Below, piece after piece: positions 7,401 to 29,162 of a stretch of DNA of 40,037 bases. Position numbers and translations under genes: made by a program. The DNA lies in the IMG/VR virus record IMGVR_UViG_3300023184_000264, positions 1 through 40,037 of that record. The stretch is one strand, 5' to 3'. How positions within the stretch are numbered: position 1 is the first letter of the stretch; each line of letters opens with the position of its first letter. The notes beneath the pieces are model-generated. The model was not told the DNA's origin and ran no database searches. It saw only the letters and a program-made list of their open reading frames with translations. Source of the DNA: a virus.

Positions 7401-10400
7401 GGACTTAATGGGTTCAAATGTTCCTAACTCGCAGTATCTTGCAGATAGGTTAAGTAGTTCAGGCGCTCCTCAGTTTACTCCTCCTGCAACATATGGTGAA
7501 TTAGTTTCTCAAGTTGAAGAAGCTCTTTACAAGAAAGAACTTCTTCTTAATGAAAAGTTCTTTGAGTTTGGTAGTGGTGTTGGTGCAAAATCTTATACAG
7601 GTAAGGAACTTGTTGATACGCATGCAAAGATTCAAAATATTAATGATGAGATTCAAAGACTGCGTTCAAAGAAGGCTAGTGGATTAAAATCACGACTAGA
7701 AAATCTTGGATATAACAAACAAGATATTGGAACTGTTGCTGGCCGTGAGCAGCGTGCTGCGATTGCAGAACAAGCTAAATTTACAGCTTTGTCTAAAGAA
7801 GATTCAGCTAAATATGCACAACTTGTACAAATGCGTAATGAGTTAACTGGTGGTGGAACTCGTATTAATCCTAACTGGTTTGTTGATGGAACAACATCAC
7901 GCAAAGCTTTGGGTAATGCTTTAACTAATTATACTATGGTTTCTGAAGTAAACTCTCGTTGGGCTGCTGTGACAGCAATGCTCGGTGTTCATGGTGTTGC
8001 ACCAACTGAAAGAATGTTTACGCAAATTACTGAGAATGTTGGTAATAAATTTATTCCTGTTATTGAACAAAGTTTGCATGATTCTCGAAATGCGATTGGA
8101 ATATTAACACGTCTTGATGCTGAAATGGCTGCAAAACTTTCTGAAGGTGGTGCTGGAGTTTCTGCTGGTAAAATTTTTGCTGACCATATGAACTCTTTAT
8201 CTGTTCAAGAATATGATACACTTGCTTCGGCTATTGGACATAAAAATATGGCTACTGGTGATGCTTATGCAATGCGTCGTGGACGTCTTGATGCTATGAA
8301 GCTTGGTACAACTCCACAAGAAAAAAGAGCTCTTGAGAACAAATATCTTGAAGAAACTGTTCGTCCTTGGTATGAATCTGCTTTCCCAGGAAAAAAGGTT
8401 TCTAAAGAAAATATGAAAACAGCTCTCAAGTCTGAATCTAAATCTTCTGCAAAATCTGCTCGTGCTACCATGATGACTGCATGGTCTGAAACTGCAGATG
8501 CTTCTATGGTTAAACGCTGGTTTGAAGATCAGATTGGTGTATCTGCTGTTCAGGCAAAAAGCAGCATGGTTAGTGGTCGTGTTGGCGAATCTGGTAGTGA
8601 ATTTTCTACTCGTGTTGTCAGTGGACATAATGTTTTGGATGTTAAGATAAAGAATCTTCAAGAAGCTCGTATACGTTTTAAACGCATGCTTTCTCCAGAT
8701 ATGAATATTGCAGAATTTTTTAATGATCCTTCTGCTGTTCAACGTACACCAACCTTTTATGCGTATATGCTTCAAAAAGAAGCAGATACTCTAGCTGAAC
8801 GTATTGCCGTTAAAGAATCCGCCACTGGTTCTGCTGGTGTTATTGTTGACAGATTAAAATCTGCAAAAGCTACTGCTGCTACTTATAAATCTGAAGCTGA
8901 TTTACTTGCTGCTGGTGTTAAAGTTCCAGATAATTTTGTTGCTAAACTTGATGCTATTAAACCACGTATTTCTGCTATTGAATCTGCTGACAGTGCAGTT
9001 TCTGCTGCACAGTCTAAACTTGATGATGTTGTTGGAAAAAGTAAGGAACTTCAGGATTCTATTACAGCAAAGAATGAAGCATGGATTGCTTCTGGCAAAT
9101 ACAAGGGAAAGCGTCCTTTAACAGATGGTGAAACCGCTAGTATTGCTAAGTTAAAATCTGAACTTGCTTCTGCAAAAAAAGCCGTTGCTGATACAAGTAA
9201 AGCAAGAACTGCTATTCCTAATCTATCTAAGGGTGAATCTGATTTTTATGATATTGTAAAGACTGAAATGGCACGACCAGCTCCTGAACCAGTTGTTACA
9301 CGCAAAGCTAATCCTTTAACTGGTCAAGGTCAACGCACAAAACCTGGTGTTGTTGATCGTCCTTATGCTGATCAAGCTAAGAAGAGTCTTGATGAATATA
9401 ATGCCATGATTGAAAGTACTATGCATTCAAAAGCTAAAGCTGATCAGGAAATGGTTAATGCTATTGATGCTTTGGCTGGTCATCAACTTCCTGCTTATCG
9501 TCATGGTTTTATTGACCCTCAAGGACGTGTTGTAACTTTAAAAAATGGAGAAGTTCTTACTTTTTCTGAGGCTGAACACAGATCGTTGTATCATGGTCCT
9601 GGTGGTCGTGTTCGTAATCAGGTTTTACGTGAAAATGCTGATGCTGCTATTCGTGATACTAAGAGTCAAATTGAAAAGTTAAGTGTTCTTAAACAGCAGT
9701 ATCAGGATACACTTGCTCGTACGTATACTTTAAAGTTATCTGCTACTGATGTATCTGCTTTACAACAGGAGATTGCTTCTATTGAAAGTAAACTTGTTGG
9801 TTTAAATAAAGACATTGTTGGGTTTACTATTGATAGAGAATCCGCTCTTGCTTCTACGCAAGCTATGGCTCTTGAGAAGATGCGTATTTTGGTTAATGGT
9901 TCTAAAACAAATGGTGCTGTTTTTGATCAGGCTGGTTTGTCACAATTTGCTAAGTTTGAACACCCAACTCAAGCTAATATTGTTAGTCGTGTTAGTCCAG
10001 GTAGAAACATTTTTGATTATTTTGATAAGAATCCACGGTATGGTGCTTCTGCTAAAGAAGCTACTCGTCGTCAAGCAGCAATTGCTAAAGCGTGGGCTGA
10101 AACTCCAGAGTTTAAGTATTTAGATAAACTTTCTGTTAAAGAAAAAGATGTCTTTGTTCGCATGTATCAAGATATGACTAGTAGAACTGACTCTATGCTT
10201 GCTCATCAACAAGAGTTGACTGCACAAGCTAATCGTGCTGTTGCTGATAGTGCTACTGCTGGTCATGCTGTTGTTGAAGCACAGAAATCTGTTCAAGAAG
10301 CTGCACAGCAAGCTTCTGATAGATTGGCTGTTACTACTGGATCCGCTCCTGTAGATGCTATGGGTAATCCACTTCCTCAACCTACCACTCCTTTTGAGGC

Positions 10401-12450
10401 TAAACAGTATTCTGATTCTATTGTTCAACAGGCTACTCCTAGTGGTCCTGTTATTGTTCCTGCTTCTGGTGCTGAAAATACTGTTTTGGCACAGGCTGCT
10501 GATGCTCGTGTTTCTGCTGAGGGTGCACGTAATCAAGCTTGGACGCAGACACAGCAGGCTAAAGCTAAGTTGGCTGAGTGGAACACTCCTCGTGTTGGTC
10601 CTCGTGGTGAGAAACTTCCTAGTCCTCGTGTTGAGGCAATGAAACAAGCGGAAGGTATTTATAAAGCAAAACTAAACAGAACACAAGCTGTTCAGGATGT
10701 TATTGATGCTGCAACTAATGCTCGTGAAGGCATTCGTACTAAGATTGAAATCACTTCTGGTGGTGCTGCAGAATTTATGACTGCTGTTAATAATGAACGT
10801 GAACTTGCTGCTGCTTTGAAATCACAACTTGATGAGATTGGTGTACTTGTTCGTACACTTCCACCTAAGGATGCTGTTGATGTTATGAAATCACTTTCCA
10901 AGACAAAGGGAGTTAAGTTAAGTCCTGAACGTATTGGTAATGTTTTACAAACATACCGTGATTGGTCTGTTGATAACTTCCATGTATTTGAAAAACTTGG
11001 CAATGATCCTCAAAACCCTGTATTTAAAGCTTGGGCTGCTGCAGGTATTGCTGATGCTCATCTTATTGATTTGGAACTTACACATTCACAAGAGTTACTT
11101 GCTTTGGCTGGTGCTTCTACGCCCGAATGGATTAATAGAGTTGTTACTCCAATGTCTGATGGTTATTTAAAAATTGCTAAAGAAAATGGTATGTTAACAG
11201 ATAAGAAACTTGTTGATGCACGTCGTTTTCCAAGTTTGTATGGAAATAGTGAAGCTGTTGATTTGTTGAATGGCATTGCACGAATTAATAAGCCTGGTGT
11301 TGCTATGGATCTTGGTAAATTTATGAGTGGATATACTGGGTTCTTTAAAGCATATGCTACTCTTAGTCCTGGATTTCATATCCGTAACGAAATCAGCAAT
11401 ATCTTTTCAATGTTTGCTGCTGGTGCTGATATATCTAATATGCGTGAAGGTTTTAAACTGTGGCGTATAATGGATAATCATTTTTCACAAGGTGGAAACC
11501 TTGAATCTTTTGTTAAACTTTTAAGTGATGCAGATAAAGAACTTGGTCATAATAGTGGTTCTATTATGTTAGGAATGGCTGGAGGCAAAACACAAGACGC
11601 ACTTCAGGGTTTTATGCATGAAGGAAATAAACTTACAAGCAATAGGGCTTTGAATGCTTCACAAAAAGTTGGTGGCAAACTTGAAAGTTCTGCCCATTTT
11701 ATGTTGGCTTATGATTCACTTAAAAAAGGTTTTAATGTTGACCATGCATTTAACAGAACTAAGCGTTACTTGATTGATTATTCTCAGAAATCATTATTGG
11801 ATGAAGCAATGAAAGATATAGTTCCATTTTGGATGTGGATGAGCCACAACCTGCCTTTGCAGGTTGTTAATCGTTGGGCAAACCCTAAACCATATTTAAT
11901 GTATCAGCGTGTTGTTAATAACATTAATGCTGGACAGGATAGTTCTCAAACACCAGATTATTTAAAGAATGCTATTAATCTTGGCAATAACAAATACATA
12001 AATCCTGATTTACCTTTTAGTAAAGTGAATGATCAAATTGATCAAATTACTGATCCTCGTAAGCTGTTGGGTTATTTAAACCCTGGTATTCGTGTTCCTA
12101 TTGAAATGATGACAAACGCAAATACATACACGGGCAGGCCTTATGATAAGACGTTTGTTAAACTTGATGGTGCTAGAGCTTTGTTGTTACCTTTGTTGCA
12201 GGCTGCTGGTCAAGTTAAGTATGATTCTGCTGGTAATGCTGTTGCTACTTCTAAGTCTATTGCAGCAGTTGAGGGTATGGTTCCATTCCTTGGGCAAGCA
12301 GAACGTATTAATTCTAAGGGATTTAATTCGTATATTGGTTTACCAGTTGCTACTGCTACTCCAGCACAAATTAGTGGCATGAACTTTGGTAAAATGCAAC
12401 AACTACAGGCACTTGCTGCACAGCAGGCAAACATTCAGAAAGCGAAATAA
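4492..12450 (+). CDS. Giant internal virion / polyvalent protein (2652 aa)
   Basis: A single intact frame of 2652 codons, about a fifth of the genome. The first 170 residues are low-complexity then helical with glycine-rich hydrophobic stretches (GIMGTVLGNPIAQGILKPL). The middle (about 570-780 and 1450-1950) is dominated by coiled-coil-like Lys/Glu/Ala/Gln helices. The C-terminal part holds the motifs SPGFHIRNEISNIFSMF (about 2290) and PFWMWMSHNLPLQVVNRWA (about 2444), then PGIRVPIE. That kind of Pro-Phe-Trp, Arg-Asn end is, to my recollection, typical of large polyvalent or internal virion proteins that are ejected and insert in the envelope. I see no lysozyme-type catalytic motif, so a muralytic role is not supported. 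The ribosome binding site is poor, and the start follows the previous stop by 18 bases. Confidence 0.85.
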   Translation: MANPYNDPRYAMAQAMRQQKQASLAPTPLGPAPSASAVAYGRQASNMAASNPSLRDAIAAIGQGKKSAAPKGGIMGTVLGNPIAQGILKPLGVLALPGKAVVSTLREGLDAIDGNPNTKASFSDLTKQIKDPGFGFGKAFHIDTGNKWLDRAIGLVGDVATDPITYATFGAGKFAGYAGKLDLAEAVLKHTGDEALAAAVARSGRAAIKSEELLTQLGANRHGLYMFGKRLEVGKMGQGLRIPGTGAIGQMTENGIAKLRLLGSETRLGAFVQKITLPADDLAARQALLRGTTAGGVPISDKTSAALIGYFTANPLQRRITGEVLQAERQNLMQILQSEGAQGLNAYKDTIYKYLENPALLASAPADVQRAAEVWGAGFFHSYENKIGESLKAVDPAADFKAVTDYFPHIQTDEAIAYRANPNSPHARELNTIYARDPMEGGKNFKTRTMQEGDMWFGHKLTIEDIKSTERLNELANAGGFTGNFFETDISKVATRYVEEYAKEAGVIAKHQHLADAGFWDRAQAVEMGTSFVDGELVKNVKKNVASISSDLRDAHNNLAKSWLGLSSAVTEHQVALTKQLAELTSPTGALGSKELLLSTEAALNDILSSSMNIGADQLSLVGAAIGTSKNKMAELFGYTYKAGKLVAKDTGLEVIDSPHVLGGLTNYLDNLQQEVLQLEHSMRPLESDLTGQALQDVYKTSEVQMKLLQQKLEQTSAKVEQIVAFGNQLEDSLQKVINGEVVGNVSTDVTNILGVIGADGVLSNSHARELIGGQFDIGQSLQQYLTGVVNKDGGLFQQLTSVTPLAKDTVTKMPISSYYDNIAKVFTGEMAFNDVRSMGIFALLNDSRLYGQNIPGFLQNVREELITQLRQADEVQSILKDIASQQQAGGRLTARKLFESQITPAYDRALLYTEQSKGMTDWLGKFKSTEIGLKSLDSPIDWSVVDKYVEANPWLADFTPTASYGSSIEDLMGSNVPNSQYLADRLSSSGAPQFTPPATYGELVSQVEEALYKKELLLNEKFFEFGSGVGAKSYTGKELVDTHAKIQNINDEIQRLRSKKASGLKSRLENLGYNKQDIGTVAGREQRAAIAEQAKFTALSKEDSAKYAQLVQMRNELTGGGTRINPNWFVDGTTSRKALGNALTNYTMVSEVNSRWAAVTAMLGVHGVAPTERMFTQITENVGNKFIPVIEQSLHDSRNAIGILTRLDAEMAAKLSEGGAGVSAGKIFADHMNSLSVQEYDTLASAIGHKNMATGDAYAMRRGRLDAMKLGTTPQEKRALENKYLEETVRPWYESAFPGKKVSKENMKTALKSESKSSAKSARATMMTAWSETADASMVKRWFEDQIGVSAVQAKSSMVSGRVGESGSEFSTRVVSGHNVLDVKIKNLQEARIRFKRMLSPDMNIAEFFNDPSAVQRTPTFYAYMLQKEADTLAERIAVKESATGSAGVIVDRLKSAKATAATYKSEADLLAAGVKVPDNFVAKLDAIKPRISAIESADSAVSAAQSKLDDVVGKSKELQDSITAKNEAWIASGKYKGKRPLTDGETASIAKLKSELASAKKAVADTSKARTAIPNLSKGESDFYDIVKTEMARPAPEPVVTRKANPLTGQGQRTKPGVVDRPYADQAKKSLDEYNAMIESTMHSKAKADQEMVNAIDALAGHQLPAYRHGFIDPQGRVVTLKNGEVLTFSEAEHRSLYHGPGGRVRNQVLRENADAAIRDTKSQIEKLSVLKQQYQDTLARTYTLKLSATDVSALQQEIASIESKLVGLNKDIVGFTIDRESALASTQAMALEKMRILVNGSKTNGAVFDQAGLSQFAKFEHPTQANIVSRVSPGRNIFDYFDKNPRYGASAKEATRRQAAIAKAWAETPEFKYLDKLSVKEKDVFVRMYQDMTSRTDSMLAHQQELTAQANRAVADSATAGHAVVEAQKSVQEAAQQASDRLAVTTGSAPVDAMGNPLPQPTTPFEAKQYSDSIVQQATPSGPVIVPASGAENTVLAQAADARVSAEGARNQAWTQTQQAKAKLAEWNTPRVGPRGEKLPSPRVEAMKQAEGIYKAKLNRTQAVQDVIDAATNAREGIRTKIEITSGGAAEFMTAVNNERELAAALKSQLDEIGVLVRTLPPKDAVDVMKSLSKTKGVKLSPERIGNVLQTYRDWSVDNFHVFEKLGNDPQNPVFKAWAAAGIADAHLIDLELTHSQELLALAGASTPEWINRVVTPMSDGYLKIAKENGMLTDKKLVDARRFPSLYGNSEAVDLLNGIARINKPGVAMDLGKFMSGYTGFFKAYATLSPGFHIRNEISNIFSMFAAGADISNMREGFKLWRIMDNHFSQGGNLESFVKLLSDADKELGHNSGSIMLGMAGGKTQDALQGFMHEGNKLTSNRALNASQKVGGKLESSAHFMLAYDSLKKGFNVDHAFNRTKRYLIDYSQKSLLDEAMKDIVPFWMWMSHNLPLQVVNRWANPKPYLMYQRVVNNINAGQDSSQTPDYLKNAINLGNNKYINPDLPFSKVNDQIDQITDPRKLLGYLNPGIRVPIEMMTNANTYTGRPYDKTFVKLDGARALLLPLLQAAGQVKYDSAGNAVATSKSIAAVEGMVPFLGQAERINSKGFNSYIGLPVATATPAQISGMNFGKMQQLQALAAQQANIQKAK

Positions 12451-12451
12451 T

Positions 12452-12889
12452 ATGAAGTACTACAATTGGCAGAAACCATCGAAACTTGACTATGTGAAGT
12501 TTCGTGTTGCATCACCAAACCTTGAGGTGTTGAATCGCTATCTGGCGAAGCGTTGGGGTGGTACTAACCTGGGGATTTTTGTGAAGCGCCCAGTTCGTGG
12601 TGGCACCGTTCCTTCTACTCATTCGTTTGGAGCGGCTCTTGATTGGCGCTACGACACCCGTGAGGAGGGTAAAGAAGTTATGGATTGGCTAGTACTGAAT
12701 CATGAAGTACTGGGCGTCCAAGTTGTACAAGACTACGTTGGTTGTTGTCTGTGGATTGTTGGTATTGGCTGGAAGCATGCCCAACCAGATCCTACAGGAT
12801 TTGGTCAGCCGTGGGCTAAGTGGATACATATTGAAACCTCACGTGAATCTTGGGGAGACTCACGCAAGATTTCAGAACGTATTAAGTAA
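12452..12889 (+). CDS. M15-type peptidoglycan peptidase, probable endolysin
   Basis: A 145-residue protein starting two bases after the giant gene. It shows the zinc-peptidase M15/VanY-like signature: H57 in THSFGAALDWRY with D64 seven residues on, and H126 in WIHIETS near the C-terminus, which together would bind Zn2+. The family cuts peptide cross-links in peptidoglycan (D,D- or L,D-peptidase). There is no signal peptide, so release would need a holin; the small membrane protein at 29571 is the best candidate. It is the last rightward gene, and its stop abuts the stop of the opposing gene. It may act together with the Rpf-like enzyme at 19113. The fold is confident; the exact bond cut is not. 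Confidence 0.8.
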   Translation: MKYYNWQKPSKLDYVKFRVASPNLEVLNRYLAKRWGGTNLGIFVKRPVRGGTVPSTHSFGAALDWRYDTREEGKEVMDWLVLNHEVLGVQVVQDYVGCCLWIVGIGWKHAQPDPTGFGQPWAKWIHIETSRESWGDSRKISERIK

Positions 12890-14808: not shown

Positions 14809-15148
14809 GTTTTGTTACCAGTAGTCGTTGGACGAGTTTATCGTCAGTGTATGCAATGCCGTTCAATCCGTCCAGGATTGATTTGGCATAGTTGTCGATA
14901 TCTCCTCGCAGTTTACTCGCTGGTCCATCTAGCGTTTTAACTGTAATAGTTACCTTGTCTTTGTATAAGCCTATCACCATGCTGACTGGTGTGTCAGCAC
15001 ATGGTCCATGCCATGATGAACCAATGTATCTTTCAAATACAAGGGTCTGTTCTGGGGTGAATACTCTGCCTCGCCTGCCAAGCCGTGGGCGTTGTTTAAC
15101 TTTTGGCTTGACGGGGATGGTTTGTTTGTGGTTGATTGGTTCTGTCAT
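14801..15148 (-). CDS. rusA: RusA-family Holliday junction resolvase
   Basis: A 115-residue protein of normal RusA length. It shows the family pattern: a basic N-terminus (KVKQRPRLGRRGRVFTPEQT) and the catalytic segment RGDIDNYAKSILDGLNGIAY followed by TDD. D83, D85 and D102/D103 are the metal ligands, and K89 matches the conserved lysine. RusA cuts four-way junctions symmetrically as a dimer, resolving recombination or replication intermediates before packaging. Its ATG overlaps the stop of the upstream primase (ATGA), so the two are translated together. Confidence 0.92.
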   Translation of the reverse strand: MTEPINHKQTIPVKPKVKQRPRLGRRGRVFTPEQTLVFERYIGSSWHGPCADTPVSMVIGLYKDKVTITVKTLDGPASKLRGDIDNYAKSILDGLNGIAYTDDKLVQRLLVTKHE

Positions 15149-16068
15149 GGTGTTCCCATTGTAATTACGTATGATCTTTCTATTAGTTTGATTAGTTCTG
15201 ATTCACCATCTGCTCGGTCTTGGAACTTACCCCATCGTGCATCTGCTGAACGCACAACCACCAACGCTTCGTTGGGTGGTATGTTTGCGTCACGCATTTT
15301 ACAAGCAAGTCGGAACAAGGTGGAGGAACGGTCGTTTCCTTCTATTGGTCCGTCTCTCCACATGATGTATGGTATAGCTCCGACTTTGCGCAGGATTTGT
15401 TTAATGTCTGCATTGTCGTCCGTGTTTGTTATGTGTACTCGCTGTGGTGGTCTCCACAGGCTTGCTAGAGTGTTTAGCTGTTGTTCGGTGGCTAGGTTGG
15501 CGTTGGCTTCTTCTAGGAACTGTGTTAGTGACATAATGTTTTCATCGTTGTCTAGAATGTAGCGTTCGGCTGGTGTTTCCTTGCGGGCATTAGGGTAAGG
15601 TAGGCGTACATAGTTGCCGTATCCTGTTCCTGCTGTTTCCTGCTTGGGGTTTACTTCCTTGGCTGGGTAGTTGATTGCTTGGTGGGCTGCCAGGAATGCT
15701 CGCCGCATTGTTGCGGCTGGCACTAGTGAGTCTGCGAACACCCAGATGTGATATCCTTTGCGTGTTCGTTCAACCCATGATGTTATTCCTTTAACGGCGA
15801 AAGACATCTGCAAGTTACGTGCTGCATCTAGGTCGTCTACGTCAATGTCTGAACATCCCCACACACAATACCAGCTGGCTTTGAATGGCAGCAGTGGGTA
15901 CACACCGATGAGTTCGTCACCTTGTAGGTGTTCTAGGAACTTGTCTTGTGTTAGTGGCTGCTTGACGCATCCACCACCCCATGAACCGTATACATCGCCT
16001 CTGCCTCTGAATAGTTTTGTAAACGATTCTAGAATGGCTGGGCTGATGGTAGTTCCGCTTGACTCCAT
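15145..16068 (-). CDS. Archaeo-eukaryotic-type primase
   Basis: A 307-residue protein. The start at 16068 is chosen because AAGGAGC lies seven bases ahead; longer in-frame starts overlap the helicase gene further. An AEP-type primase core is visible: SDIDVDDLDAARNL (D74, D76, D78/79, metal binding), then RTRKGYHIWVF with H107, then GNYVRLPYPN. The C-terminal 90 residues (NDRSSTLFRLACKMRDA.. GKFQDRADGESEL) look like a helical PriCT-type extension. It would make primers for the host polymerase together with the adjacent helicase. Its layout resembles the primases grouped with TOTE/phage AEPs. The primase call is confident, the subfamily less so. Confidence 0.82.
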   Translation of the reverse strand: MESSGTTISPAILESFTKLFRGRGDVYGSWGGGCVKQPLTQDKFLEHLQGDELIGVYPLLPFKASWYCVWGCSDIDVDDLDAARNLQMSFAVKGITSWVERTRKGYHIWVFADSLVPAATMRRAFLAAHQAINYPAKEVNPKQETAGTGYGNYVRLPYPNARKETPAERYILDNDENIMSLTQFLEEANANLATEQQLNTLASLWRPPQRVHITNTDDNADIKQILRKVGAIPYIMWRDGPIEGNDRSSTLFRLACKMRDANIPPNEALVVVRSADARWGKFQDRADGESELIKLIERSYVITMGTP

Positions 16069-17096
16069 TGTGCGCTCCTTAAATACTGGTCGGGTAGTTC
16101 TCCGTTCTTGAGTTCCCATAGTCGTCCTGTTTTAACATCTATCTCAAAGTCCACATCGTCAACTAGCATTCCTGCTGGTCGTTTGTTTTTTAGCAGAGAC
16201 AGAGTGATTGTGTACTCGTGTACTTTCTGGTCATACATGAGCATCTCTAAACGCTCTTGTGCTTTCTCTGTGTGGTTTCTATCTAGGCGTTCTCTTAGGT
16301 CGTTTATTTCTGCTCCGATTTCCATCTTCTTTCGGCGTACACCAATGATCGATGTTGCTTGTTGTTCTCCACCGTAGGCACCTGAGGAGATGGTTAGTTT
16401 GCGTCCATCTGCTCCTGAGGTTCGTGAAGTTTGGTGTAGCACTAACATTGGGATGTCGTGTCGTCTACCGAATCCTTTTAAGAATCCTGCTTTCTCGGGT
16501 ACTTGTTCTCCTGCTTCTACAAGTTCAAGGTAGTCAACTACTGCGAGGTCGGGCTTGTCGCCCCACACATCACACACTTCGTTGTATGCTCGTTCCATGT
16601 CTGCTGGTATTAGTGGTTGGTCAAAGACTGCAAGATTGGGGAAGTCCTCCTCTGCTGTTTGGCGCAGTAGGTCAATGGCTTCTTTGTCGTCGTTAGCGAC
16701 ACGCATCTCTAGTTGACGTGCATCAATGTTGTGATGCATGCATGTCAGTTTAGTTAACACTAGTGTCTTGGGTTCATCGGGGATAAACAACGCTATCTTC
16801 TTGTCTCTGTTGTTGCGTAATGCATGTAACAGAACCAGAGTTTTACCACCGTGGCTGTATCCGAGCATCATTGCTAGTTCTCCTGGGGCTATGCCACGCA
16901 TCTCAGCATCTAGTGGCTCTATGCCTAAATAAACTCTGTCTTGTGGTGATTGTGCCCAGCGCACATACGAGTGTGCTGCTTCTGTGAGTGGTACGTAATG
17001 GCGGTACTCTTTAGGAATAGAAGAAGCAGGGGGCGTAGTTCCCCCTGCCTCAACTTCATTCCACCCCGCCTGTATTTGATCAAGCGAGAGTCTCAA
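16029..17096 (-). CDS. DnaB-like replicative helicase (RecA-fold ATPase)
   Basis: A 355-residue protein starting with TTG, preceded by GGGAG five bases away, directly after the previous stop. Walker A is GYSHGGKT (79-86), Walker B is DLAVVDYLEL (D188), and LVLHQTSR follows (about 218-225), the DnaB/SF4 order. There is no N-terminal primase-interaction domain of normal DnaB size, so this is a single RecA-like motor with a short N-terminus. It would unwind DNA at the phage fork, and the primase gene overlaps its 3' end by 40 bases. A RadA/DnaB hybrid type cannot be excluded from sequence alone. Confidence 0.85.
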   Translation of the reverse strand: MRLSLDQIQAGWNEVEAGGTTPPASSIPKEYRHYVPLTEAAHSYVRWAQSPQDRVYLGIEPLDAEMRGIAPGELAMMLGYSHGGKTLVLLHALRNNRDKKIALFIPDEPKTLVLTKLTCMHHNIDARQLEMRVANDDKEAIDLLRQTAEEDFPNLAVFDQPLIPADMERAYNEVCDVWGDKPDLAVVDYLELVEAGEQVPEKAGFLKGFGRRHDIPMLVLHQTSRTSGADGRKLTISSGAYGGEQQATSIIGVRRKKMEIGAEINDLRERLDRNHTEKAQERLEMLMYDQKVHEYTITLSLLKNKRPAGMLVDDVDFEIDVKTGRLWELKNGELPDQYLRSAQWSQAELPSAQPF

Positions 17097-17495
17097 TTAC
17101 GCTCCCTTTGGTGGCCAGTAAGCTTTTTCCTTGTCGTTCACTGCTTTGAACCAAGGACGCTTTGGGTTGGCTGCAAGGTCTGCACGATTGTCGTACACTT
17201 CTGTAACACCGTCACGCTGACATGAAGATACAAGCCACTCTGGGATTGGACCCTGCTGGTCGTTCTTGATGCTGACTGTAAAGCCTGTGGTTGTTGCTTG
17301 TGGGAATGCCTTGGCTACCATTGCTTCTGGTGTTGCTTGTGCACCACCATAGATTGCTTCCATAAGCAGTTCTGTTACTGCATCAAATGCATCAGCAAAC
17401 TGTGCAATTGCTGAGTTTACGTCTTTGTCGCTTGTGGCAAGTTCGCTAGCAATTTTTGCTGCTACTTGTGTGATGATTGCTTTTGAGTTGTCCAT
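17097..17495 (-). CDS. Possible ssDNA-binding accessory protein
   Basis: A 132-residue protein with an N-terminal helical half (KIASELATSDKDVNSAIAQF) and a C-terminal segment VYDNRADLAANPKRPWFKAV then KAYWPPKGA. The latter recalls small phage proteins encoded between a Cas4-like nuclease and a helicase, in which a C-x-x-C zinc ribbon ends in a Trp-Pro tail; here the cysteines are absent. I infer a DNA-binding accessory of the replication set from that resemblance and from its place between the nuclease and helicase genes. AGGAG lies about 11 bases before the ATG. The function call is weak. Confidence 0.6.
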   Translation of the reverse strand: MDNSKAIITQVAAKIASELATSDKDVNSAIAQFADAFDAVTELLMEAIYGGAQATPEAMVAKAFPQATTTGFTVSIKNDQQGPIPEWLVSSCQRDGVTEVYDNRADLAANPKRPWFKAVNDKEKAYWPPKGA

Positions 17496-18367
17496 TATTG
17501 GGCTATCTCCTGTGTGTTGTTGTTTGTGAAGTCACTGATGCGGGCTCCTTTGCATATCGACCAGTATGTGCACCACTTCTCAGAACAGAGTCCATGTTGG
17601 TCGTTTGTCATCCACGGAGTATCAAGTCCGAGTTTAACAAATGGTTGTACTATAGAGTCTACCTGATGTTTAAACCAGTCAACGTGGCTAGCTGTTCTAA
17701 TAATTGGAACAACCTGTCCTACGCTGTTGTTGGTTCGTGTCATGACGCCATAGTTAAATCTTACTGGGTACCCTGGTGCCCATCCCATCTCCACGCTGGC
17801 ATACGAATATGCTGACGCCTGAATGGACTGTCTTTGTTTCTCGCCTTGAGAATATTTACGTCCTGCTGTTTTCCAGTCCCACACCAACCCGTTCGGGTCT
17901 ACGTAGTCCATGGTGCCACCAAGCCAGACTTCTGTTTTCTTTTGTGCATCAAAAGGTAACGAAGTGTCGTCTGGGAAGTCAAACAGTTTAACACCAAACT
18001 TGGCTTCAACCTGTCCACCTTCTACAACTTGAGGCATTATGTCACGCTCAAATGTTGCCATTAGTTTTTGAACATACTCACGCATGTGTGCAGGACCATT
18101 GGTTGAGTTAATCTTGTAAGGTTCCTCATCCATAAGTCGGGTTAGTTCTGTGTCTGCTACTGTGTAACCTTCCGTGACTGTACCTCCCGTCAGGTAGTAT
18201 TCAATGCCTCTGTGAACGGCGGTTCCGATGTGTGTAGCGTCTGAACCTTGTCGCCATTCTGGTAGCGTCACAGCAAGCCGTGAACGCTCGGGGCATATCA
18301 TAACATCGTTAAGCCATGATTGTCGTACCCATATTTTTCTGTGGGTTTCTAGTTCTTCAATTCTCAT
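17495..18367 (-). CDS. Cas4/RecB-like PD-(D/E)XK exonuclease with Fe-S cysteines
   Basis: A 290-residue protein with a strong AAGGAG ribosome binding site. Motifs appear in order: GTAVHRGIEYY (H52), E121, GGTMDYVDPNG (D154), VWDWKTAGRKY (D164, K166) and the downstream helix QASAYSYA with Gln. Four cysteines in the Cas4/AddB arrangement (C25, then C261, C266, C272) would hold an iron-sulphur cluster. Such enzymes resect DNA ends for recombination or degrade DNA. It is in the replication operon next to the helicase, so phage recombination is more likely than CRISPR adaptation; no cas1/2 or array is present. It overlaps the upstream stop by one base. Confidence 0.88.
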   Translation of the reverse strand: MRIEELETHRKIWVRQSWLNDVMICPERSRLAVTLPEWRQGSDATHIGTAVHRGIEYYLTGGTVTEGYTVADTELTRLMDEEPYKINSTNGPAHMREYVQKLMATFERDIMPQVVEGGQVEAKFGVKLFDFPDDTSLPFDAQKKTEVWLGGTMDYVDPNGLVWDWKTAGRKYSQGEKQRQSIQASAYSYASVEMGWAPGYPVRFNYGVMTRTNNSVGQVVPIIRTASHVDWFKHQVDSIVQPFVKLGLDTPWMTNDQHGLCSEKWCTYWSICKGARISDFTNNNTQEIAQ

Positions 18368-18822
18368 TAAAGTTCTCCTTTTTGTTGTAGTCGTTTTCTT
18401 AGATGGGTTACATACGATTTGTTTATCGTATAGCCAAACTCGTCAATAATTTCTTGACGCAGTGGTGTTGGCTGTATGCCTCTCCTGATTCCTCTGACTA
18501 GATAAGCATACACATCCGTTGGTAGGAAGCGTGATGGTGTTATGGTATGTTCGATCATTGGCGCAATGTCCATCTTGCCTCGCAGGTTCTCTGCTTCTTG
18601 ATGTTTCCTAAACAATCTAATTGGTGGTGTCGCTTTGTTTACCAGTTCACACCAGTGTGGTATTGTGCCATCCCATTTGCCAAAGTAAGAGAGTGCTTCA
18701 CCGTTCAACATTTCGTGTGGTATCGCTAGATACTTTGGGGATACTGGGGCTGTGATGTTTACGTCACATAAGCATAAAGGGTCGTGCGATATGACATCGC
18801 AACCCTCGGGTGATAAGGTCAT
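18367..18822 (-). CDS. Hypothetical protein, possible C-terminal winged helix
   Basis: A 151-residue protein with AGGAG five bases before the ATG. The N-terminal 45 residues contain three Cys in GCDVISHDPLCLCDVN. The C-terminal 60 residues (LPTDVYAYLVRGIRRGIQPT, then EIIDEFGYTINKSYVTHLRK) look like a DNA-binding winged helix. It is the first gene of the nuclease-helicase-primase run, overlapping the Cas4-like gene by one base. A replication-initiation or operon regulator role is plausible but is inference. Confidence 0.65.
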   Translation of the reverse strand: MTLSPEGCDVISHDPLCLCDVNITAPVSPKYLAIPHEMLNGEALSYFGKWDGTIPHWCELVNKATPPIRLFRKHQEAENLRGKMDIAPMIEHTITPSRFLPTDVYAYLVRGIRRGIQPTPLRQEIIDEFGYTINKSYVTHLRKRLQQKGEL

Positions 18823-18927: not shown

Positions 18928-19077
18928 TCACAGCCTAGCATTAGGCTTGGGCTTCTTGTCAACGGGCTCCATCTCAACGGCTTTCTTTCCTCGCTCATGC
19001 CAGTGAGTTGGTGGCTTGAATAAGGCTAGGTCTGTACCTATCCAGTGGGTGCATTTAGGGCACTGCCAGTAGTTCAT
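18928..19077 (-). CDS. Small zinc-ribbon-like protein (49 aa)
   Basis: A 49-residue protein (MNYWQCPKCTHWIGTD.. ending KKPKPNARL) with AAAGGTGG nine bases ahead of its ATG. CPKC with a following THW, and a later THWHE, suggests a single zinc knuckle. The tail is Lys/Pro-rich. It lies between the Rpf-like gene and the replication run. The gene call rests on the ribosome binding site and composition; a nucleic-acid or protein adaptor role is a guess. Confidence 0.65.
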   Translation of the reverse strand: MNYWQCPKCTHWIGTDLALFKPPTHWHERGKKAVEMEPVDKKPKPNARL

Positions 19078-19112: not shown

Positions 19113-19685
19113 TCAGCGTCTCTGATGGGACTTGGCGACCACCTTGTCCCACGCCGTCCAAGGCGCTGGGACGGGTGGTTTGAGATAGTCGTTGTTTTTG
19201 ATGCAGCCCCAGCCGTTAAATCCAACTGGCTGTTGAAAGTAGCCATTAGGAGCCAACCATCCATGCAACGCAATCCTGTTCGCAACAGTGATTTGTTCTA
19301 GTCGTGTTGCGAGCCATTGCTTGGGTGCAAACTCTTGTCCACCGAACCCCCGCCATGTCTGAAGAAAAATACCGAGACCACCAGCGAATTTGCCACGGTC
19401 TTTCCAATTGCTCTTAGTTTCGCATTGAGCGACCTTGTCCCAGTATTTGTTGTGGGGTCGTTTGAGTGTAGCCAGCCACGATATATCCCACTTACTACTG
19501 TTTCGTGTTTGTACTGCTTGGGTGTGGACTTGTGGTGCTTGTGTGGTAGATGTGATAAAAACATATACAAATTCTTTCTTTACTGTTGTTATGGGTGAAG
19601 CCGATGCTGGCTTGTTGTCCGATAGCCAGAAGGCTAGCATGAGGGTTAATACTAAAATGATTTTAAGTATAGTAGATTTGTTCAT
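19113..19685 (-). CDS. Secreted Rpf-like transglycosylase
   Basis: A 190-residue protein with GGAG seven bases before the ATG. Residues 1-29 are a signal peptide: basic start, hydrophobic core IILVLTLMLAFWL, and an ASA|SP cleavage site. Residues about 80-162 match the resuscitation-promoting-factor/transglycosylase domain: WDKVAQCETKSNW with catalytic E89, GGLGIFLQTWRGFGG, the Q/A-rich helix, and GFNGWGC, with C88 and C161 a likely disulphide. Rpf enzymes cleave peptidoglycan and, in Actinobacteria, help dormant cells resume growth. Here it is encoded in the leftward (early) block, separate from the endolysin. It could act in lysis, wall remodelling or waking of dormant hosts; which one is not visible. 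The domain assignment is confident. Confidence 0.87.
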   Translation of the reverse strand: MNKSTILKIILVLTLMLAFWLSDNKPASASPITTVKKEFVYVFITSTTQAPQVHTQAVQTRNSSKWDISWLATLKRPHNKYWDKVAQCETKSNWKDRGKFAGGLGIFLQTWRGFGGQEFAPKQWLATRLEQITVANRIALHGWLAPNGYFQQPVGFNGWGCIKNNDYLKPPVPAPWTAWDKVVAKSHQRR

Positions 19686-19896
19686 GATTGGTCTCCTTCA
19701 TAAACTGAATTAAGGCAAGTTCCAGTTTATGCTTTGATGTCATTAGTAGAGCGTACTCCTCTGATACGCCGTCTTGCCATTTGGTGGATGATACTCTGCC
19801 AACTTTCTTGGCTACTTGGTCACAGCCGATACTGAGAGATTTAATGGTTGCTCGTAGTTCGTCAATGGTGAGTTGTGTGTTTATGGTTAGTTCCAT
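19663..19896 (-). CDS. Small hypothetical helical protein
   Basis: A 77-residue protein whose start lies 31 bases downstream of an operator copy (19928-19943) and behind an AGGT. Its sequence (MELTINTQLTIDELRATIKS.. HKLELALIQFMKE) predicts beta-alpha then two helices. It overlaps the Rpf-like gene by 23 bases, so the Rpf-like enzyme is probably transcribed from the same operator-controlled unit. No family is recognised. Confidence 0.7.
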   Translation of the reverse strand: MELTINTQLTIDELRATIKSLSIGCDQVAKKVGRVSSTKWQDGVSEEYALLMTSKHKLELALIQFMKETNHEQIYYT

Positions 19897-19927: not shown

Positions 19928-19943
19928 CTTTACAGGTGTAAAG
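19928..19943 (-). promoter_or_regulatory. Operator copy E
   Basis: CTTTACAGGTGTAAAG on the plus strand: 7-bp arms around a 2-base centre. It is one of five identical copies (others at 22991, 24132, 24714 and 25202), all with GG at the centre on the plus strand, so all share one orientation relative to leftward transcription. It precedes the 77-residue gene and the Rpf-like gene. It is likely bound by a dimeric phage regulator. Confidence 0.85.
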
Positions 19944-20809: not shown

Positions 20810-21763
20810 CTAGAAGAACCAATCGTTAGTAGAGTCGTAGTTGCCTTTAGTGTGTGACGGCACATACAGTTGGGACTCACGATAGTCGTCAACAATGTCA
20901 GACTGCGCACCCATGCATCTACACAACATGCGTGGCTCTGAACAGAACCAACAGCAGTCGCATTGTGAACACAGGTCAGCATAGTTTACATTCTGCTCGT
21001 TGATGTACTCAATGTGGTCACAATTGGCACAACGCCATAGTTCACCCCACACCTCATTACCGTCATTGTCAATGTATGTACAATCCTCAACAAGTAAAGA
21101 CTGGTTGTCCCACATGTCGTTGTCGTATGTTGTCGGAGTGTAATCTTTTGGTGTTTTACTAGTAGATGACCAGCCAGTAGTGTACATGCCAGACCCTGAG
21201 TAACTGTAACGGTCGTACTTGTAACTATTGTTTGACCACCACACACCATCAACCCAATGCCCATCGTTCTCGTTGATGATGTAATAGTCATCTTGAACAT
21301 CAGGATTAGCAGATAGGAAAACAAGTTTAGAACCGTCAGCGAACTTAGATAATTTCTTGCGTGTTTTCTTACTGTTAAGTGTTGATGCACCACCCCAACT
21401 AGGGAATAGTTCCTTAGCAAAGATGTGCGTGTCACTCATACCGTTGCGAGCCGCAATCGGCAACATGCCGTTGTGTGCTACAACCGTGTTAATGTCCTTG
21501 CCAATCTGAAACGGGTGACAGTTGTTAATGTTAGTACCACCGTGTGTGGTAATTCTGGAGTGAAACAAAGCAGGACCAGAATGAATTGCTCGTGTCTTGA
21601 GGAAGTTATCCAACACGGCATCAAAGTTGAGCCCACTACCTTTCACAATATGTGTACCAGCATGAACAGCGTAACCAAACCCGTCAGGATTGTTTACAGC
21701 ACCAATAGCCAACTCATCCGTGTCCGCTGTTGTGTACTCCTGCATGAATGTCAATAGACACAT
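20810..21763 (-). CDS. Class II glutamine amidotransferase with Cys-rich C-terminal domain
   Basis: A 317-residue protein. It starts MCLLTF, placing the nucleophile C2 directly after the initiator Met, with no propeptide. Class II (Ntn) GATase motifs follow: NPDGFGYAVHAG, FHSRITTHGGTNIN (R70), and VVAHNGMLP (N98, G99), close to GlmS numbering. These enzymes release ammonia from glutamine and hand it to an acceptor site. Residues about 170-215 are Tyr/Ser/Trp-rich linker; residues 245-283 contain nine cysteines (CANC, CSQCDCCWFC, CRC) likely binding zinc. AGGA sits eight bases ahead of the ATG, inside the end of the amidoligase gene. The adjacent ligase is the obvious partner; the substrate is unknown. 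Confidence 0.87.
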   Translation of the reverse strand: MCLLTFMQEYTTADTDELAIGAVNNPDGFGYAVHAGTHIVKGSGLNFDAVLDNFLKTRAIHSGPALFHSRITTHGGTNINNCHPFQIGKDINTVVAHNGMLPIAARNGMSDTHIFAKELFPSWGGASTLNSKKTRKKLSKFADGSKLVFLSANPDVQDDYYIINENDGHWVDGVWWSNNSYKYDRYSYSGSGMYTTGWSSTSKTPKDYTPTTYDNDMWDNQSLLVEDCTYIDNDGNEVWGELWRCANCDHIEYINEQNVNYADLCSQCDCCWFCSEPRMLCRCMGAQSDIVDDYRESQLYVPSHTKGNYDSTNDWFF

Positions 21764-21765
21764 TC

Positions 21766-22953
21766 TTATATTCCTTTCGCTGTGGCGTAAGCGTCAAATG
21801 CTTCGTAGCCGTTTTGTTTTGTCCATTGACGGAAACGATCCCAGTCATGACTCTCTTTAATTTTGATGTTGTACATTTGACTGATGCTGTACTCCGCTAC
21901 TGCGTGTACTGCTTCCAGTCGTGCTTGAATAGTTTTGGGGTTGAGCGTACCCTTAAAGAAACGCAACTCTAATGTGTGGCGTGGCTGTAAGTTAAGCGCA
22001 ACATATCTGTCGTTGTTGCATTGTCTTGGTGAGCCAGGGCGCAAGCCCTTGGCGTAACGCAACATTTGCGTAGCCTCAAAGTCATCCCATTGTGCGTATG
22101 TTGAACGGCTACGACCAGCAAGTGTTTTCCATTCCTCGGTGTTGCGATAAAACATAGACATGAAACGATACAAAGATGATGACCTCTCCTCAAAGAATCC
22201 CTTGTTGATGTGAACATGAAGCCCACAGGTTCTTGTAGTAGCAGAACGCATACCAATGTCAGACAACTCACGCAATCGTGCGAGTGGTAATACATTTTGT
22301 ATGTACTCCTTAGTCATGGGGTGAGATACAACCTCAAACCCATTGCTAAGAGAACCGTCATGCTTGAGATAACAAGAGTCACCAAAGATTTCTGTAGCAA
22401 GTTCAGCACCCTCGTTGATGTCGCAACCGTCTGCTTCCATTTCCAACTCAAAACCAGTAACGCTGATGCGTCGTGGCTCTCGCATGGTGACAAACATCTT
22501 GCTGTCCTTGGTTAGAACATCAGTACGCATACCATGAAAGATAGGGTCAGGACGGAAACTGTAGTCATGAATGAGTCGTGAACCTTCTTGTTGTTCATCT
22601 TCACATGAACATTCAGGTCCGTTGTCAATATGATAAACACCGTCACAGTATTCACAAGCACCGTACTGGTCGTAACACGATTCGCATCGCATCTCGTCCC
22701 AACCAATGTCCATCATGGTGTCACGCTCTACATACGATTGGCAGTCGCTACAGTATGTGTATTCGTCGTCGCAATCTGAACAAAAGTATTTAGCGTTACC
22801 TGTTGCTAATGCTTCATAGATGTCTTGGCGTCGCCAGTATGATGTGTTCTCGTCAAGACGAATAACTAATGCTGATATTAGATGGTCGTCCTCGCAGATA
22901 CAGCACTGGGCTAAGTTGCTTGGTGGCTCTGTTGTTGTTTCTTGTGTTGTCAT
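21766..22953 (-). CDS. Amidoligase (Amidoligase_2 type) with N-terminal Cys-rich domain
   Basis: A 395-residue protein, first gene after operator copy D, with a strong AGGAGGG ribosome binding site. Residues 17-118 carry about 15 cysteines in C-x-x-C pairs (CCIC, CSDCDDEYTYCSDC, CESC, CEYC, CSC), a zinc-binding array. The COOH-NH2 ligase core follows: GFELEME (167-173), D199 with GFEVVSHP (E207, H211), CGLHVHI (243-249), RYVALNL and LELRFFKGT (E329, R331). This is the glutamine-synthetase-like fold that ligates amines to carboxylates using ATP. Known relatives occur beside GATase II genes and are proposed to modify peptides or cell-wall components. I infer that the pair makes an amide on an unknown substrate. 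Confidence 0.87.
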   Translation of the reverse strand: MTTQETTTEPPSNLAQCCICEDDHLISALVIRLDENTSYWRRQDIYEALATGNAKYFCSDCDDEYTYCSDCQSYVERDTMMDIGWDEMRCESCYDQYGACEYCDGVYHIDNGPECSCEDEQQEGSRLIHDYSFRPDPIFHGMRTDVLTKDSKMFVTMREPRRISVTGFELEMEADGCDINEGAELATEIFGDSCYLKHDGSLSNGFEVVSHPMTKEYIQNVLPLARLRELSDIGMRSATTRTCGLHVHINKGFFEERSSSLYRFMSMFYRNTEEWKTLAGRSRSTYAQWDDFEATQMLRYAKGLRPGSPRQCNNDRYVALNLQPRHTLELRFFKGTLNPKTIQARLEAVHAVAEYSISQMYNIKIKESHDWDRFRQWTKQNGYEAFDAYATAKGI

Positions 22954-22990: not shown

Positions 22991-23006
22991 CTTTACAGGT
23001 GTAAAG
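22991..23006 (-). promoter_or_regulatory. Operator copy D
   Basis: CTTTACAGGTGTAAAG, 37 bases ahead of the amidoligase start. Between it and the ribosome binding site the leftward strand is A-rich (ATTTACAAGTAAAAATACAA). The site is identical to the other four copies. Its place makes it the control point for the amidoligase-amidotransferase unit. Confidence 0.85.
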
Positions 23007-23989: not shown

Positions 23990-24176
23990 AGTCATCCTCC
24001 TCAAAAGAAAACAGTTCATAGTCTGAAAGGAAATCTCTCAAACGAATAGGTTGCTCATCTGAATAACGATCAATGTCTAACTTGTGTAAACATTGTTCAA
24101 GGAACCACATAGTGTGATTTCGTAGTCGCATCTTTACAGGTGTAAAGAATAGGGTGAAGCGTAAACGCTTGTTCAT
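23979..24176 (-). CDS. Small acidic-tailed protein, operator within 5' end
   Basis: A frame of 65 codons ending with an acidic tail (ELFSFEEDDYDY). The ATG at 24176 forms an ATGA overlap with a tiny upstream frame. However, operator copy C (24132-24147) is then read as part of the protein (TPVK), and another ATG stands directly next to the operator at 24131 (MRLRNHTMWFLEQ). If transcription starts at the operator, the protein is the 50-residue form from 24131 on a nearly leaderless message. Neither start has a ribosome binding site. The gene is likely, the start unresolved. Confidence 0.55.
   Translation of the reverse strand: MNKRLRFTLFFTPVKMRLRNHTMWFLEQCLHKLDIDRYSDEQPIRLRDFLSDYELFSFEEDDYDY
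24132..24147 (-). promoter_or_regulatory. Operator copy C
   Basis: CTTTACAGGTGTAAAG, identical to the other copies. On the leftward strand an ATG follows immediately (24131-24129). This position differs from copies A, D and E, where a ribosome binding site lies between operator and start. Confidence 0.85.
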
Positions 24177-24713: not shown

Positions 24714-24729
24714 CTTTACAGGTGTAAAG
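24714..24729 (-). promoter_or_regulatory. Operator copy B
   Basis: CTTTACAGGTGTAAAG, placed two bases after the stop of the gene at 24732-25247 and ahead of the leader of the 53-residue gene. It is identical in sequence and orientation to the other copies. Confidence 0.85.
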
Positions 24730-24731
24730 AA

Positions 24732-25247
24732 TTATGCGAACCGCATGTTCTTTGCAATGATGAGCGCAGTCTTACGCTCAACACCGTTAGCAACCAACTC
24801 TTTCACAAGGTCAGCACCTGAAATAGTGCGAACCTTGTAGTTCGTAGTGTCCTTCACAGTCATCTTCGGCTTAGCCTTAGACGCTTTGATATGACCCATT
24901 GACTTCCACTCTTTCGGACCGCCGAGAAGATTCTCAACCGCCCAAGCAATCGTAGAGATTTGCTGAGCAATCGTGGACTCTTTCCAGATGTCAATATTCT
25001 TGCCTCGTGACTCACGCACAGCGAGCCTTGCGTACTCAGCAATATTCTTGAAGTCTTTACTATCAAGATAGATAGCGTGCCACGCCGTTACTCGTGACAA
25101 CTCCGCTACATTCACCCCCTTCACAAGTGAAACAAAGTTGGTGGTCTTGCGTGTAGAACGCTTGTCTGTTGTAGTAGTAATTGGATTCTCCTTTGAGAGT
25201 TCTTTACAGGTGTAAAGATTTTGTATGTATGTATCTGATAGCCCCAC
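24732..25247 (-). CDS. Hypothetical protein, candidate operator-binding regulator
   Basis: The open frame runs from a GTG at 25247 (AGGA five bases ahead), which would put operator copy A inside the coding sequence. A better ribosome binding site, AAAGGAG, lies six bases before ATTACTACTACAACAGAC at 25181, which looks like ATG-ACT-ACT with a G-to-T change; an ATT start there would give a 149-residue MTTTTDKRSTRK.. protein beginning after the operator. The protein is basic and helical (NIAEYARLAVRESRGKN, QQISTIAWAVENLLGG) and ends with a possible HTH (GADLVKELVANGVERKTALI). It is flanked by operator copies A and B, as expected of an autoregulated DNA-binding protein. No family is recognised; the regulator role is inference. 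Confidence 0.65.
   Translation of the reverse strand: MGLSDTYIQNLYTCKELSKENPITTTTDKRSTRKTTNFVSLVKGVNVAELSRVTAWHAIYLDSKDFKNIAEYARLAVRESRGKNIDIWKESTIAQQISTIAWAVENLLGGPKEWKSMGHIKASKAKPKMTVKDTTNYKVRTISGADLVKELVANGVERKTALIIAKNMRFA
25202..25217 (-). promoter_or_regulatory. Operator copy A
   Basis: CTTTACAGGTGTAAAG, 20 bases ahead of the candidate ATT start at 25181 with AAAGGAG between. It is the first copy met by leftward transcription after the 330-base non-coding stretch, so it probably controls the head of the early cluster. Confidence 0.85.
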
Positions 25248-28961: not shown

Positions 28962-29162
28962 ATGGAGTCTTGGATTGTTCCAGTTTTGGTCGCCATCATT
29001 GGAGGTCCATTAATGGTTCTGATGCAGATTTTACGTAAAGAGAACTCAACTCAACATGCTGAAGGGCGTGAGTTGTTAAAAGAGGTTATCCATAAGGTGG
29101 ATAATGTTGGAACAAAAATTGACAACCATATTGGTTGGCATGACGGAATAAAGGATTCATAA
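28962..29162 (+). CDS. Small single-span membrane protein
   Basis: A 66-residue protein: residues 4-22 are a membrane helix (WIVPVLVAIIGGPLMVLMQ), followed by a charged helix (EGRELLKEVIHKVDNVGTKI). A one-span membrane anchor with a cytoplasmic coiled coil fits a lysis accessory or antiholin, but no family is certain. TAATG overlap follows. Confidence 0.7.
   Translation: MESWIVPVLVAIIGGPLMVLMQILRKENSTQHAEGRELLKEVIHKVDNVGTKIDNHIGWHDGIKDS

Follow-up and report, generated by a model that had tools for sequence, protein, structure and literature searches.

The window analysed in this work, by which we mean the whole stretch of DNA of 40,037 bases, comprises the entire virus record G000 and represents a podovirus-like phage, with genes for a P22/SU10-type portal, an SU10 adaptor, a terminase and collagen-like and Mtd-type fibres. 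The genes are arranged in two blocks. The rightward block (approximately 26.6–40.0 and 0–12.9 kb) encodes a likely endolysin and a giant protein of 2,652 aa in addition to the packaging and structural proteins, and the leftward block (12.9–26.4 kb) encodes RusA, an AEP primase, DnaB, a PDDEXK exonuclease, a sigma-region-4 protein, a glutamine amidotransferase-like protein (GATase) and an amidoligase. The DnaB-like helicase shows that the leftward block is a replication block. No tRNA was found in the window. The giant protein (4492–12450) has no Pfam match at E 0.1, and its relatives are found in the same place throughout the group; the protein P0008 is without a Pfam family and its PHROG is of unknown function. 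The features that are important for this study are as follows, where the slot denotes the place of the Rpf gene before p18367 and the exonuclease gene:

12452–12889, plus strand: likely endolysin, a 145-aa M15-type peptidase with no signal, right after the giant gene
15145–16119, minus strand: AEP-type primase
16029–17096, minus strand: DnaB-like helicase
17495–18367, minus strand: PD-(D/E)XK exonuclease, the downstream boundary of the slot
18367–18822, minus strand: p18367, a conserved protein downstream of the slot
18928–19077, minus strand: small zinc-ribbon-like protein directly downstream of Rpf (Pfam match below cut-off)
19113–19685, minus strand: putative exported Rpf-family muralytic enzyme, 190 aa
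19266–19454: Rpf domain of this enzyme (residues 78–140)
19596–19685: signal region of this enzyme (approximately residues 1–30)
19663–19896, minus strand: p19663, a small conserved protein of 77 aa, with a 23-nt overlap with the Rpf start
19928–19943, no strand: palindrome CTTTACAGGTGTAAAG, candidate operator of the p19663–Rpf unit
20810–21763, minus strand: class-II GATase, upstream of the unit
21766–22953, minus strand: amidoligase (PF12224)
22991–23006, no strand: palindrome CTTTACAGGTGTAAAG, before the amidoligase gene
24132–24147, no strand: palindrome CTTTACAGGTGTAAAG
24714–24729, no strand: palindrome CTTTACAGGTGTAAAG
25202–25217, no strand: palindrome CTTTACAGGTGTAAAG
28962–29162, plus strand: holin candidate, a conserved 66-aa single-span membrane protein, between the TerL and portal genes

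The initial annotation had placed an Rpf-like enzyme at 19113–19685 on the minus strand, and these coordinates are exact, with the ATG at 19685, the stop at 19113 and a good Shine-Dalgarno (GAAGGAGA) ending 6 nt 5' of the ATG. Its assignment to the Rpf family is likewise borne out, both by the HMM for PF06737 (51.7 bits against a cut-off of 27, E 1.5e-13, residues 78–140) and by the RpfB fold seen in the predicted model. The PHROG match of the protein is phrog_29757, 'transglycosylase', and its sequence matches in the PDB are RpfB, RpfC and RpfE chains (best E 5.4e-8). In the AlphaFold model, residues 71–170 have block-mean pLDDT values of 92–98 (79.2 for the whole chain). The predicted domain matches the RpfB catalytic domain (4emn_B) with Z 13.7 and an rmsd of 1.4 over 77 residues, and the next fold below the Rpf chains is that of c-type lysozyme (Z 7.1). 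In an alignment of 31 Rpf sequences, from which near copies were excluded, E89, T110, W94, W159, C88 and C161 are invariant; the catalytic Glu, E89, which had been described as intact, is thus present in every sequence.

The protein shares with the cellular Rpfs (M. tuberculosis RpfB, RpfC and RpfE) the fold, the catalytic Glu, the adjacent disulfide Cys and the positions of the hydrophobic pocket. However, the cellular proteins end in GAWPVC and those of the window clade in a GWGCI[KR]N-like sequence, and the sugar-contacting residues also differ. When residues of RpfB (taken from an excerpt of PMC11978375) were mapped by hand onto the phage protein, using the PDB alignment and the structural-match range and leaving Ala351 out of the comparison, three of the five compared residues (Gln310, Asp312, and Gln347) were found to be replaced. 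The position of Gln310 is Gly in 31 of the 31 aligned phage sequences, that of Asp312 is Tyr, Ala or Phe, and that of Gln347, which lies beside an alignment gap, is Phe, His, Arg, Leu or Thr; the Thr at the position of Thr315 is kept. These replacements indicate that the cleft differs from that of RpfB and, due to the changes in the sugar contacts, the muralytic activity of the phage Rpf is not assured. Residue 312 is reported to be variable among the mycobacterial Rpfs as well (PMC4648573, in part).

A search with the window Rpf protein led to six contigs with 87–92% identity, and relatives of the terminase were found at 53 loci. Rpf is present in the same place in nine further contigs that carry both flanks, six of which came from the Rpf search itself and three from the terminase alone. 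In comparisons of the window with four close relatives, excluding the row for L017 (wrong end), the dN/dS values for the domain part were 0.11, 0.16, 0.08, and 0.19, and the first 75 codons were looser (0.5–1.5). The Rpf domain, with its predicted catalytic site intact, is by these ratios under purifying selection. A recent stray gene is ruled out by the dN/dS values well below 1 in the domain and by the same placement of the gene in the nine further contigs.

The N-terminus of the protein has a hydrophobic core from approximately residue 5, followed by ASA at residues 28–30 (hydropathy by script and by eye), and the signal peptide of the initial annotation corresponds to this signal-like region. 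From its sequence, the protein would be expected to cross the membrane by a Sec signal. A hydrophobic N-terminal core is also present in 27 of the 28 slot or block enzymes, both Rpf and SLT-type, the exception being that of G085, for which the start was chosen by script; some copies (G005, G051, G094, and G010) have, by eye, lipoprotein-like signals.

The Rpf gene was also described earlier as part of an operator-controlled leftward unit in the early block. The leftward orientation and the presence of a palindrome repeated five times are observed, whereas the operator role and the early timing are inferred. The 16-bp palindrome CTTTACAGGTGTAAAG occurs in five exact copies in the window, every one of them within the leftward block, and that at 19928–19943 lies 31 nt before p19663. 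When up to two mismatches were allowed, seven matches were found, both imperfect ones in the late block, compared to a mean of 0.32 in shuffled sequences, where at least seven matches occurred in 0 of 100 shuffles. The palindrome may serve as an operator, and the leftward unit may be expressed early. Sigma-70-like promoter sites in the region of 12.4–27.2 kb were at chance level (27 versus 26.0 in shuffles).

Among 19 related loci surveyed, a palindrome with arms of 6–7 was repeated at least three times at 16, of which L110 and L137 (arm 6, three copies) may be due to chance, the shuffle control for this survey being for arm 7 at one locus only; a repeated palindrome was absent at L107, L109, and L134. 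Palindromes in 3–6 copies were seen in the leftward block at L001, L006, L100, L101, L102, L104–L106, L108, L111, L253, and L239. Their sequence differs for each phage lineage (e.g., CTTTACA-2-TGTAAAG, CTCCCCA-4-TGGGGAG, and ACTGATA-6-TATCAGT), as if the putative regulator and its palindromic sites had diverged together in each lineage. In a further survey with arm 7, 15 of 18 leftward stretches, some of them partial (G055 and G059), had no repeated palindrome, as was also the case for both of the late-block controls. Control by palindromes does not appear to be general in this phage group.

The likely endolysin carries the M15-peptidase motif S.H..G.A.D, and its assignment is based upon this motif, its position and an alignment with a larger protein from G007. 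The window protein has no Pfam match; the VanY family scored above its cut-off in 10 of 37 related records, and a profile comparison of the two M15 types was weak (probability 19, E 0.0012). An M15-type gene is present in 27 of 30 genomes, in 26 of these with the motif and in G087, where the stretch is cut, by similarity only, and it adjoins the giant gene in all 23 genomes in which both were mapped. In G009 (L085:6858-7886) and G010 (L087:7827-8855) the endolysin place is occupied by a GH25 lysozyme rather than an M15-type protein (PF01183, E 2.4e-34 and 5.9e-34, respectively). The Rpf gene and the likely endolysin are 6.2 kb apart and on opposite strands, in agreement with the earlier statement that the enzyme is encoded away from the endolysin. 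The 66-aa membrane protein, which is a plausible holin, belongs to phrog_32850 of unknown function and has relatives in most of the terminase loci; a weak relative of it was observed a few kb from Rpf at five loci of another lineage (L130, L131, L133, L135, and L136).

To compare the slot, 30 genomes with a DnaB gene were used, for which stretches of 20 further records were added after a terminase-profile search. Four stretches were partial (G012–G014 and G087), and the count leaves out G003 and G093, where the site is outside the stretch, G089, G097–G100, and G058, of which the last is Rpf-positive by PF06737. In 17 of the 30 genomes, the window included, an Rpf gene is found before the p18367 and PDDEXK genes, and p19663 immediately precedes it in 16 of these genomes. 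In nine other genomes (G086–G088, G090–G092, and G094–G096), the slot is occupied by a signal-bearing SLT-type lysozyme, in eight right after p19663. As some of the records were found by searching for Rpf, the numbers 17 and 9 do not represent frequencies. The SLT slot proteins are 136–185 aa long and have the motifs RES(R/K)C and GL.Q(I/V)N. By hmmscan, all nine matched SLT or SLT_3, seven of them at or above the curated Pfam cut-off, those from G088 and G094 being below both cut-offs. In two additional genomes an SLT-type protein is encoded at another site of the leftward block (G007, E ~1e-12; G010, E 8e-14), an assignment based upon the profile of the nine slot proteins and the motif alone. 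A six-frame genome search with PF01464 found 4 of the 11 SLT genomes, the others resting on single-protein hmmscan and the nine-slot-protein profile.

None of the 28 genomes contained both Rpf and an SLT-type protein, as judged by PF06737 on whole records and the SLT profile on the compared stretches: PF06737 was not found in the whole records of the 11 SLT genomes, and the SLT profile had no match in the compared stretches of the Rpf-bearing podoviruses. Neither enzyme was seen in the remaining two, viz. G009, whose contig starts at p18367 and is without the slot, and MW202803, which is complete. At 95% DnaB identity the 30 genomes fall into 21 clusters, eight with Rpf, nine with SLT in the slot, two with SLT elsewhere and two with none found. 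In the DnaB tree the Rpf label needs three changes, at least two of which are forced by strong branches, and in the capsid tree it needs four, at least three of them forced in this manner. Based upon these changes, more than one exchange of the slot occupant has probably taken place. Since the locus keeps a glycan cutter while the enzyme family changes, exported glycan cutting is probably the property under selection, and what is conserved at the slot looks like this property, not Rpf identity.

The genes around the slot enzyme are also largely shared. In 24 of the 26 slot-bearing genomes, the exceptions being G084 and G094, p19663 is located directly before the exported enzyme gene (Rpf or SLT), mostly overlapping it, and it is possible that p19663 is a partner or regulator of this enzyme. 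Of the 26 slot-bearing genomes, 23 have a recognizable GATase and amidoligase, the stretch from G092 ending short of these genes; they were not detected in G059, G084, G007, G009, G010, and MW202803.

A profile search revealed 45 loci with Rpf-family proteins, including those found earlier. For 36 of these loci the ORFs were listed, and most of the proteins are 150–300 aa long and show, by eye, a hydrophobic stretch at the N-terminus. Seven records of 57–268 kb (L113, L114, L120, L121, L127, L129, and L132) encode Rpf and SLT-type domains in one signal-bearing protein; the SLT part of these fusions was matched by the nine-slot-protein profile (E 2e-14 to 3e-9), and for L121 both PF06737 and PF01464 were confirmed by Pfam. 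In a tree of Rpf domains, which was constructed without cellular rows, 34 IMG/VR proteins branched apart from five of cultured phages, one of them a tape-measure copy, with support of 100/99, a separation to which a long-branch warning applies.

The Rpf domain had earlier been put forward as the best clue to the host in the window, and we find it to be a fair one. On the one hand, a PF06737 match was found in one of 14 named control genomes, that of Corynebacterium glutamicum, and WhiB is present in 18 of the 43 Rpf-bearing IMG/VR records, among them all seven fusion records; this co-occurrence supports actinobacterial hosts for the Rpf type of those 43 records. On the other hand, no WhiB was found in the window or in the 19 podovirus-group records among the 43, and PF06737-type motifs are reported in staphylococcal SceD and IsaA as well (excerpts of PMC7150955). 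The host is probably an actinobacterium. Two pattern-based scans of GTDB (84,980 species), which would miss diverged copies, showed no relative, and thus provided neither a host genome nor a cellular donor. Cultures of freshwater actinobacteria that have served to isolate phages are described in PMC10202952, although the phages of that study belong to another family.

The closest precedent that has been tested is the Tgl protein of kayviruses. According to the excerpts of PMC7150955, Tgl is secreted via a signal peptide, is muralytic and is transcribed by the host polymerase like an early gene; it lyses S. aureus only in combination with nisin, an agent that dissipates the proton motive force. 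Tgl was shown to act like a second endolysin, and joint action with LysK, the late endolysin, is proposed. The window protein resembles it, as described there, in its signal (here signal-like), its lysozyme/lytic-transglycosylase fold with one catalytic Glu, and in the presence of a separate late endolysin of other specificity (here a likely one). There are also differences. Early transcription is known for Tgl, whereas for the window Rpf it is presumed. The kayvirus tgl gene is part of the lysis module, three genes away from lysK, but the Rpf gene lies among the replication genes, outside the lysis module. Tgl is a 230-aa, IsaA/SceD-like protein, part of which resembles the wall-binding region of IsaA, whereas the window protein has a plain Rpf domain and, at its C-terminus, a conserved GWGCI motif. 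Lastly, the host phylum of Tgl differs from that presumed for the window, and Tgl has been tested, whereas the window Rpf is known from sequence. By analogy, the window Rpf may work like a secreted accessory endolysin of the Tgl/Lys44 type, although we do not call it a kayvirus-type tgl gene. The sister-phage SLT lysozymes share with it the place before the PDDEXK exonuclease, the signal-like start and a glycan-cutting fold, but they belong to Pfam SLT or SLT_3, with no PF06737 match in those records.

Other Rpf-like sequences of phages differ in their context. In tblastn searches 114 phage records were matched, none covering >80% of the query, and the best-ranked were mycobacteriophage tape measure proteins. 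The Rpf of these proteins is of the same domain family, but it is a part of a virion protein, whereas the window Rpf is a separate gene away from the structural genes. An excerpt of PMC1796659 reports that tape measure proteins contain Rpf-like motifs; for TM4, the infection phenotype examined there relates to motif 3 and not to the Rpf-like motif 1 of Barnyard. A signal-like start and Rpf in a separate small gene, as in the window, are found in the Rhodococcus phages Weasels2 and Shagrat, the Streptomyces phage BRock and the M. abscessus prophage prophi79-1. However, the Rpfs of cultured actinophages end in GAWP(V/T)C, two of them with a LysM-like part (by eye), unlike the window clade.

In view of these results, we favor, with somewhat better than even confidence, the interpretation that the Rpf protein is an accessory, Sec-exported endolysin, i.e., a glycan cutter that weakens the wall of the phage's own host and acts together with the late peptidase. 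In this scheme, a glycan-strand cutter with the Rpf fold (lysozyme/lytic-transglycosylase class) would be made along with the replication genes from the palindrome-controlled leftward unit, cross the membrane by its signal peptide and come to sit in the wall of the infected cell, where it would nick or prime the glycan strands as the still living cell goes on repairing them. A holin would then collapse the membrane potential, the late M15-type peptidase would reach the wall and cut the peptides, and the glycan and peptide cuts together would open the cell. We infer that the enzyme is exported and active, that it is made early, that a holin takes part and that the enzyme and the peptidase cooperate. 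The last of these is plausible because RpfB, which cuts glycan, and RipA, which cuts peptide, are reported to cleave walls synergistically (PMC2262848, in part). It had been stated earlier that simple lysis is at odds with early or middle expression of an exported muralytic factor, but the kayvirus precedent does not support this view, as Tgl, according to PMC7150955 (excerpts), is early-transcribed, secreted, and lytic with nisin; hence, an early exported muralysin does fit lysis. The accessory-endolysin interpretation is weakened by the distance of the Rpf gene from both the likely endolysin and the holin candidate, unlike tgl. Additionally, the pairing of a peptidase with a glycan cutter is not obligatory, since the complete distant relative MW202803 has a peptidase, but no exported cutter was found in it. 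The strict view that Rpf supplies a glycosidase missing from the endolysin was rejected, because most of the Rpf-negative relatives also have M15-type endolysins and because G010 carries both a GH25 endolysin and an SLT-type protein, so that the exported enzyme is not simply a missing glycosidase; what remains tenable is a weaker form, in which an exported glycan cutter is usually accompanied by a peptidase.

Other interpretations of the enzyme were weighed against the same evidence. If early loosening of the wall kept a starved or slow host growth-competent, or made it so, lysis would not be its main role. This reading is rather improbable, although the gene stands with the replication genes, stand-alone signal-bearing Rpfs are found in non-structural regions of the Rhodococcus phages Weasels2 and Shagrat, and, in an excerpt of PMC10986025, four of six host rpf genes are up in R. 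erythropolis during infection by phage WC1, a rise that its authors link to preventing dormancy. The WC1 evidence, as given there, concerns host genes and not a phage gene, and the replacement by SLT suggests that Rpf identity is not kept, yet muropeptides made by SLT enzymes could signal too. A broader early role, in which the Rpf or SLT cutter conditions the wall together with p19663 and usually the GATase and amidoligase, so that a slow-growing actinobacterium stays permissive for growth during replication and lysis is secondary, has a modest chance of being correct. The amidoligase and GATase upstream of the unit, detected in most slot-bearing genomes, also underlie the proposal that the enzyme and this pair form an early wall-modifying set against competing phages, and for phage pairs of this kind a role in wall modification and in the prevention of superinfection has been suggested (excerpt of PMC10580990, citing Iyer 2009). 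However, G059 and G084 keep Rpf where the pair was not detected, and a cutter by itself would be more likely to open the wall than to close it; we regard superinfection control as unlikely.

The initial annotation also suggested that the enzyme could wake dormant actinobacterial neighbours into susceptible growth, as its Rpf family membership and signal-like N-terminus might indicate. No specific support was found for this, and an SLT-type lysozyme takes the same place in nine related genomes. Rpf-specific signalling would hardly survive such an exchange, unless the signal lies in released muropeptides, which may be products of both enzymes; a resuscitation-specific role was rejected as unlikely on this ground. 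Moreover, the sugar contacts are changed, the lipoprotein-like signals of some copies would tether the enzyme rather than release it, and other phages of the neighbours would gain as well, making a secreted waking signal quite improbable. Still lower is the likelihood that the enzyme is an ordinary late lysis protein and that its gene came to lie here by chance. The enzyme is muralytic by homology, the stand-alone gene in the Streptomyces phages BRock and GiJojo ends ~1 kb from the annotated endolysin, and at L115, in another lineage, a stand-alone Rpf lies among structural-looking genes (by eye); but in the window and its mapped relatives, Rpf points the same way as the genes for DnaB, primase, RusA and exonuclease and opposite to the structural ones.

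The replacement of Rpf by another glycan-cutting fold at one locus indicates that muralytic activity, and not a resuscitation signal, is the likely target of selection, and in this way a comparison of genomes speaks to the possible purpose of Rpf genes in phages. A further suggestion is that lysis in two steps, with an early exported glycan cutter and a late peptidase, extends beyond staphylococcal phages. The slot enzymes provide a defined set for testing the walls of hard-to-grow actinobacteria. Two findings, an Rpf clade specific to phages and the exchange between Rpf and SLT at a single locus, are apparently new: among the open-access PMC matches listed, no report mentioned the clade, its location with the replication genes, the exchange or a test of a phage-borne stand-alone Rpf, and the main text of PMC6802176 on freshwater phages has no occurrence of Rpf, resuscitation or transglycosylase. 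BFVD holds 'Transglycosylase-like' proteins of uncultured phages, and stand-alone signal-bearing Rpf genes have already been deposited, viz. Weasels2 gp46, Shagrat gp107, BRock gp43, and prophi79-1 gp102. Of these, Shagrat gp107 (L142:3926-4432) is annotated as 'glycosyltransferase', and it consists, by eye, of a signal peptide, an Rpf domain and a LysM-like end.
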